64,000 nt of DNA from Pedobacter roseus (GTDB lineage Bacteria; Bacteroidota; Bacteroidia; Sphingobacteriales; Sphingobacteriaceae). Position numbers and translations under genes: made by a program. The notes under the pieces were generated by a model. It did not search any database and was not told the DNA's origin. It saw only the letters and a list, made by a program, of their open reading frames with translations. The DNA is taken from assembly GCF_014395225.1 (NCBI RefSeq), contig NZ_CP060723.1:4030001-4094000 (forward strand). Reading direction: 5' to 3'. Below, piece by piece: positions 4,291 to 62,937 of this stretch (positions are counted from its first letter, which is position 1; every line of letters begins with the position of its first letter).

Positions 4291-4470
4291 TTTAAATTTC
4301 AAGATCTTTTGAAAAGCAAGTACAGCATTCCAATTAATGTTACTCCCGCTTTTCGTTGCAATCTTTTTGCAAATATTCATCAAGTAGTTAAAAGATACTC
4401 GGCAAAAAGGATTTACACTTCAATCGGGTTTAAAAACATGAAACAGTGCAACTATTAATCAAAATAGTAA

Positions 4471-32551: not shown

Positions 32552-32665
32552 TTAAATAAACCTGATAAAGCGTAAAGCCCGGATCCCGATTCTTCATCGG
32601 GAGAGGACTTGAAGCGATAGCAGGACTGCTGTAACCGAAAAGCGTCACACCATTGTTTTCCAAAA
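32552..32665. repeat. Dispersed structured element, family A/B, copy 1
   Basis: About 110 bases with the order TTAAATAAACCTGA, AGCCCGGA, the hairpin TCCCGATTCTTCATCGGGA (32584-32602), GAAGCGATAGCAGGACT, GTAACCGAAAAGCG and TTTTCCAAAA. The same series, with the hairpin 19-mer identical, occurs at 52586-52688. No ORF is present. Confidence 0.75.
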
Positions 32666-32747
32666 TAATATTGACCACCTAAGCCACCTCAGGGTATCTA
32701 AGTGATACGATTAAGTTGTATTATCTTTAGATTAAATAGAATAGTCC

Positions 32748-32807
32748 GTCATACTGAACTTGTTTCAGTATCTATCCGGAAAGACCCTGAAATAAATTCA
32801 GGGTGAC
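32748..32807. repeat. Palindromic dispersed element, family D (GTCATACTGAAC...GGGTGAC)
   Basis: Starts GTCATACTGAACTTGTTTCA and ends CTGAAATAAATTCAGGGTGAC. It holds two internal hairpins (ACTGAACTTGTTTCAGT and CCCTGAAATAAATTCAGGG) and the same outer GTCA...TGAC ends seen in family C. Confidence 0.65.
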
Positions 32808-32820
32808 GATCGGATGTAAA

Positions 32821-52430: not shown

Positions 52431-52463
52431 AGACCTCGCAGGTTTTCAAAACCTGCGAGGTCT
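52431..52463. terminator. Perfect 16-bp palindrome closing the sugar-oxidation cluster
   Basis: Two 16-base complementary arms (AGACCTCGCAGGTTTT and its complement) flank one central base. The internal TTTT run of each arm lets it act in both directions. The stem core CCTCGCAG is shared with the terminator at 47630-47664. Confidence 0.7.
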
Positions 52464-52585
52464 AAACTAAAAAAGCACATAGAGGAAGAGATGCGTACAG
52501 CGATAAAATCGCTTTTCTCATACATCCTCTTTAAAAACGAGGACGATCCGTAAGGTTCGCACCATGCTAGAACGGCTGACCTAGG

Positions 52586-52688
52586 TTAATTAAACCTGAC
52601 AGTAGCGGGCATCCCGATTCTTCATCGGGATAAAGCGGATGGCAGGACTTTCGTAACCAATAAGCGCTGGAACCTGCTTTCCAAAAAA
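52586..52688. repeat. Dispersed structured element, family A/B, copy 2
   Basis: In order: GTTAATTAAACCTGA, AGCGGGCA, the hairpin TCCCGATTCTTCATCGGGA (52612-52630), AAAGCGGATGGCAGGACTT, CGTAACCAATAAGCGC and CTTTCCAAAA. It matches copy 1 at 32552-32665 block for block. The rest of the 52464-52880 gap holds no ORF. Confidence 0.75.

Positions 52689-61280: not shown

Positions 61281-62937
<1,657 letters not shown>

Follow-up and report, generated by a model that had tools for sequence, protein, structure and literature searches.

Flavo-1 (RF01705) has been listed by Rfam from 2010 onwards as a probable RNA of no assigned function, and it has been counted among the most abundant small RNAs. The closest described DNA systems are the REP, BIME and REPIN repeats, the ends of IS200/IS605 elements, and the attC sites of integrons. 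For IS200/IS605 and TnpA-REP, a guide/target mechanism of the Y1 HUH enzymes has been described, and the genes of TnpA-REP subclass 2.6 in Bacteroidetes are flanked by "atypical secondary structures" (PMC6006769). In the transcriptome of F. psychrophilum, Flavo-1 hits were found indistinctly sense or antisense to transcripts, and many were not transcribed (PMC9723704).

The stretch of DNA analysed here (64 kb, hereafter the window) belongs to a genome of 6.33 Mb assembled as a single contig (G000). The repeat unit is called an arm, and the features of the window are:

4307..4433, minus strand: copy 3, 62.5 bits, above the Rfam cut-off (Flavo-1 model match at 4338-4435)
32554..32665, plus strand: copy 1, whole arm (foot, hairpin, 32-nt tail and 3′ site), profile E=4.9e-16
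32558..32560, plus strand: 5′ foot AAA of copy 1 (covarying foot columns 6-8)
32561..32624, plus strand: core hairpin of copy 1 (CCTG...CAGG), with apical part CCCGATTCTTCATCGGG
32657..32661, plus strand: 3′ site of copy 1, TTT+CC, complementary to the foot
52499..52547, plus strand: unrelated repeat adjoining copy 2 upstream, the positive control of the linkage test
52588..52687, plus strand: copy 2, whole arm, profile E=5.5e-23
52592..52594, plus strand: 5′ foot AAA of copy 2 (covarying foot columns)
52595..52646, plus strand: core hairpin of copy 2 (CCTG...CAGG)
52678..52682, plus strand: 3′ site of copy 2, TTT+CC, at a hairpin-to-site distance of 31 nt
61323..61425, plus strand: copy 4, 44.5 bits, above the Rfam cut-off (Flavo-1 model match at 61323-61392)

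The profile was made from about 130 copies, the E-values of copies 1 and 2 refer to the 64-kb window, and a reversed control of 400 kb contained no profile match with E <0.5. The initial annotation had paired copies 1 and 2 as a shared structured element, and they do match where it placed them, being alignable along the entire stretch of about 110 bases. Its statement that they belong to no named family was wrong: by cmscan both copies match the Flavo-1 covariance model over its full length (positions 1-76), copy 1 with 26.4 bits (E=0.0011) and copy 2 with 39.6 bits (E=2.8e-7). These scores miss the Rfam gathering cut-off of 42 bits, and the two copies are filed as diverged members because they are continuous with 46 over-cut-off copies of the same genome; the family assignment is firm and close to certain. 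The motif itself is known; what is new is the reading that both stretches are probably a REP/BIME-like dispersed DNA element, with a putative foot/site mechanism, rather than a small RNA.

The anatomy of the unit was derived from 130 distinct copies that were aligned by sequence only. From 5′ to 3′ it consists of T-AAA (the foot), CCYG-A-YN-GNA-GC-GNA-(apical hairpin)-...-GC-GNA-N-A-G-CRGG, a spacer of 29-33 nt and TTT-YC-AAA, and it is therefore longer than the Rfam model, comprising a 5′ foot, a hairpin, a spacer and a 3′ site. The helix has four base pairs, an A.G mismatch, two base pairs, a 3x3 GNA/GNA loop, two base pairs, a second, GNA-like loop and finally the apical stem, which is variable. 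In copy 1 the first GNA/GNA loop has one base fewer per side, making it a symmetric 2x2 loop instead of 3x3. The 19-base hairpin to which attention had been drawn is indeed identical in copies 1 and 2, but it lies in the apical stem, the most variable part of the family, and the apical hairpins of other copies are quite different; what the family conserves lies elsewhere, in the foot, the paired core beneath the apical part, the tail of fixed length and the 3′ site. Likewise, the supposed common block AGC.CGG consists of positions that are not homologous, because copy 1 carries an additional apical module (GCCCGG...GAGGACTT).

The hairpin shows selection on its secondary structure and rich compensatory change, which the initial annotation had proposed to look for. 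Over 11 pairs in the 130 copies, Watson-Crick pairing is 97.2%; shuffling the partners lowers it to 70.6% (maximum 73.1%) and sliding them to 42% or less, and double-change cells number 286 versus a shuffle maximum of 93. The pair 15-87 shows all four Watson-Crick types, and the A.G mismatch at 13-89 is reversed to G.A in 17 copies; at one orthologous site (L034), G000 has A.G while G004, G009 and G011 have G.A. The foot and the 3′ site are also complementary and covary, being AAA and TTT in most copies and AGC and GCT in 20-21 copies. Related genomes contain subfamilies in which the core is retained and the foot is exchanged. A GC-foot group has five further foot types with fitting sites (GCGTG...CACGCCC, GCATG...CATGCCC, GCGTT...AACGCCC, GCGTC...GACGCCC and GCGTA...TACGCCC), the one exception being a wobble combination of GCGTG and TACGC, and Flavobacterium-like genomes have TAGC...GCTCC with a hairpin-to-site gap of just 4-5 bases. 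In both of these groups, a pyrimidine and C directly follow the site.

At least 89 Flavo-1 model matches were found in G000 (46 over the cut-off) when 150 of 1477 candidates were scored; those listed look unevenly spread, with 3.0-6.33 Mb richer than 0-3.0 Mb. Profile searches of 400 kb of G000 and 400 kb of a relative (G009) gave 30-31 copies per stretch (E<1e-3), a density of about 75-80 arms per Mb, from which roughly 500 arms are extrapolated for G000. Further copies in relatives are present, with matches in 54 of 101 genomes of the bacterial family; the copy number is patchy even inside one genus or family, from none to more than 40 detected, and phylum-wide, high counts are limited to a few genera. 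Copies are commonly solitary with sharp ends, and there are also BIME-like clusters that alternate in orientation, in which the arms stand 44-98 bp apart when head-to-head and 15-28 bp apart when tail-to-tail. An autonomous form, in which a gene would lie between two head-to-head arms, was considered and rejected, as the pairs examined enclose ordinary genes.

Two groups of copies have distinctive surroundings. AGC-foot copies at L031, L032, L041 and L057 have homologous flanks downstream of 5S rRNA genes, and were apparently duplicated together with the rRNA operons. A GCGTG-foot copy (L187-L194) is found almost unchanged, as a single copy, in several genera, mostly beside a topoisomerase-like gene, apparently on an ICE-like carrier; the idea that conserved single copies in other genera mark an ancestral locus was rejected, as most travel on one such topoisomerase-bearing region.

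Compared with the Rfam family, the elements described here have the same core sequence and hairpin and the same Bacteroidota range, and copies 3 and 4 score above the gathering cut-off, but the unit reaches a 3′ site complementary to the foot that the Rfam model does not contain, and it appears to behave like DNA rather than RNA. Like REP, BIME and REPIN sequences, Flavo-1 arms are high-copy intergenic hairpins with a foot 5′ of the hairpin and clusters of alternating orientation; they differ in being larger (about 100-150 bp), in having the feet AAA, AGC and GCRTN and neither the canonical GT[AG]G foot nor GTAG or GGAG, in having GNA/GNA loops and a covarying distant 3′ site, and in that, unlike the REPs of TnpA-REP, they do not flank a cognate Y1 transposase gene. 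The foot resembles the guide of IS200/IS605 ends in being paired and covarying with a separate site, but Flavo-1 has no transposase, element body or TnpA linkage, and its partner site lies 3′ at a fixed spacing. An imperfect hairpin with a variable apical part is also a feature of integron attC sites, but neither cassettes nor a link to an integrase were seen, and the boxes RYYYAAC/GTTRRRY were not apparent by inspection.

The strong compensatory change would by itself suit a genuine functional RNA, either a small RNA that acts in trans or a structured element, which is how the discoverers (PMC2864571, "probable RNA") and Rfam (type sRNA) have regarded Flavo-1. The types of base pair do not suit it: core pair cells comprise 990 Watson-Crick, 13 G-U (1.3%) and 6 A-C pairs, and there is no G-U pair among 387 cells of the foot and site, whereas cobalamin riboswitches of the same genomes, folded to their consensus, have G-U at 10% of variable pairs and 15.6% of all pairs, a ratio of about tenfold that is rough because a single family, with 23 sequences, served as control. 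Nor does the placement of the copies follow transcription. Intergenic placement holds for 58 of 63 copies, and the remainder overlap short orfs of doubtful standing; between co-directional genes the sense and antisense counts are 20 and 23, and convergent and divergent gene pairs enclose 7 and 8 copies, respectively. A role as transcription terminator or untranslated region was rejected, the orientation bias being absent. Together with the F. psychrophilum transcriptome, in which consistent transcription was not seen, the low G-U and the strand neutrality favour selection on the DNA strand, although low G-U could instead come from a need for both RNA strands to fold. With hundreds of copies extrapolated per genome as a further point against it, the RNA interpretation is unlikely, and it is likely that Flavo-1 acts at the DNA level. 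Accordingly, the initial annotation was right in describing a selected structure and a dispersed repeat, which is also patchy and insertion-polymorphic, and its idea of possible mobility stands, while the "selected RNA" that it offered as an alternative is disfavoured because G-U pairs are nearly absent and the strand is unrelated to transcription.

If the arms are DNA, an obvious candidate enzyme would be a TnpA-REP (RAYT, HUH Y1) transposase, notably of the Bacteroidetes subclass 2.6, with which the arms share a common architecture class (a foot 5′ of the hairpin, BIME-like clusters) and whose genes have the atypical flanking structures mentioned above. However, at 81 Y1 loci (263 kb), only four arms were found and none formed flanking pairs; about 20 would be expected at the density of G000 and G009, a result to be read as no enrichment and not as measured depletion, because the density in other genomes is not exactly known. 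The unrelated repeat of window positions 52499-52547 behaved differently in the same test: at L314 of G004, with three copies, and at L315 of G011 it lies on the flanks of Y1 genes, and it is apparently the REP of a Bacteroidetes TnpA-REP. The five Y1 genes of G000 are each surrounded by other palindromes. Y1 presence and Flavo-1 copy number do not go together either: one genome with at least 34 Flavo-1 copies lacks Y1 genes altogether, and 0-1 Flavo-1 copies occur in genomes that carry 10-12 Y1 genes. Linkage was therefore rejected on the 81 loci, and the proposal that Flavo-1 arms are REPs of such transposases, largely refuted, is very improbable. Another possibility is that the host has domesticated the arms as DNA sites (cruciforms or binding sites for proteins, with nucleoid, replication or termination functions) that are immobile now; their intergenic placement and the absence of a linked transposase favour this. 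Conservation in orthologous copies agrees with this. Twenty of the 30 copies of the G000 stretch have a counterpart in G009, and these differ at 7.7% of stem positions, 29.7% of the N positions of GNA loops and 28.4% of spacer positions (p=9e-7 and 4e-17), so that stems change four times less than loops or spacer, and resident copies are therefore kept in shape. Eight pairs were replaced on both sides by another Watson-Crick pair, and a one-sided change made or removed a G-U pair in 4 cases and a mismatch in 8. Such strong conservation fits host function and a parasite equally. Domestication is harder to reconcile with the patchy copy number, the subfamilies with different feet and the insertion polymorphism: at one site (L053) an arm is present in G000 and G004 and missing in G001, G007, G009 and G011; four species have the copy at L034, and in G001 it is mostly deleted; copies 1 and 2 are both missing from the corresponding place in G009; and in G011 the place of copy 2 is occupied by a copy with a different apical module. 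Presence and absence were observed in empty-site comparisons with G009 (pairwise) and five relatives (joined flanks), but neither a target duplication nor a clean empty site, of the kind expected of a MITE (the derivative of a TIR transposon), was obtained from them, the flanks being too diverged. Domestication seems a doubtful, minority explanation.

The reading of Flavo-1 as a mobile or maintained DNA element can be given a tentative mechanism. The unit is 5′-foot-[imperfect hairpin, sheared GNA/GNA loops]-spacer-[site complementary to foot]-YC-3′. The GNA loops are present on one strand only, which suggests that this strand is recognized as single-stranded DNA, and a trans-acting protein might recognize the hairpin in that form, for example at a replication fork. 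The foot would then find the 3′ site by base pairing, in the manner of the guide and cleavage tetranucleotides of IS200/IS605, and cutting and rejoining at the 3′ site could spread or convert copies. No better mechanism can be offered than one in which single-stranded DNA is recognized and the foot and site pair as guide and target, though it falls somewhat short of being probable. More speculatively, Flavo-1 may represent a superfamily of single-stranded DNA elements of Bacteroidota, with an interchangeable guide (the foot) and target (the 3′ site), moved or maintained by an enzyme other than a Y1 REP transposase. Should Flavo-1 prove to be a DNA element, many genome annotations would be in error, Bacteroidota would possess their own large REP-like class of repeats, and the covarying foot and target site would point to a putative single-strand DNA enzyme; the G-U test could also tell DNA hairpins from RNAs in other motif collections.

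Other repeats were observed beside and within the arms. At window positions 52434-52466, a palindrome around GACCTCGCAGGTTTTCAAAACCTGCGAGGTC belongs to another repeat family with many dispersed copies in G000 and its relatives. A repeat-like stretch with inverted repeats, GTCATACTGAACTTGTTTCAGTATCT...TTCAGGGTGACGA, lies at window positions 32745-32812, and dispersed inverted repeats of the CCCTTCGACT..AGTCGAAG type are present within the apical loops of several Flavo-1 copies (L034, L045, L049).
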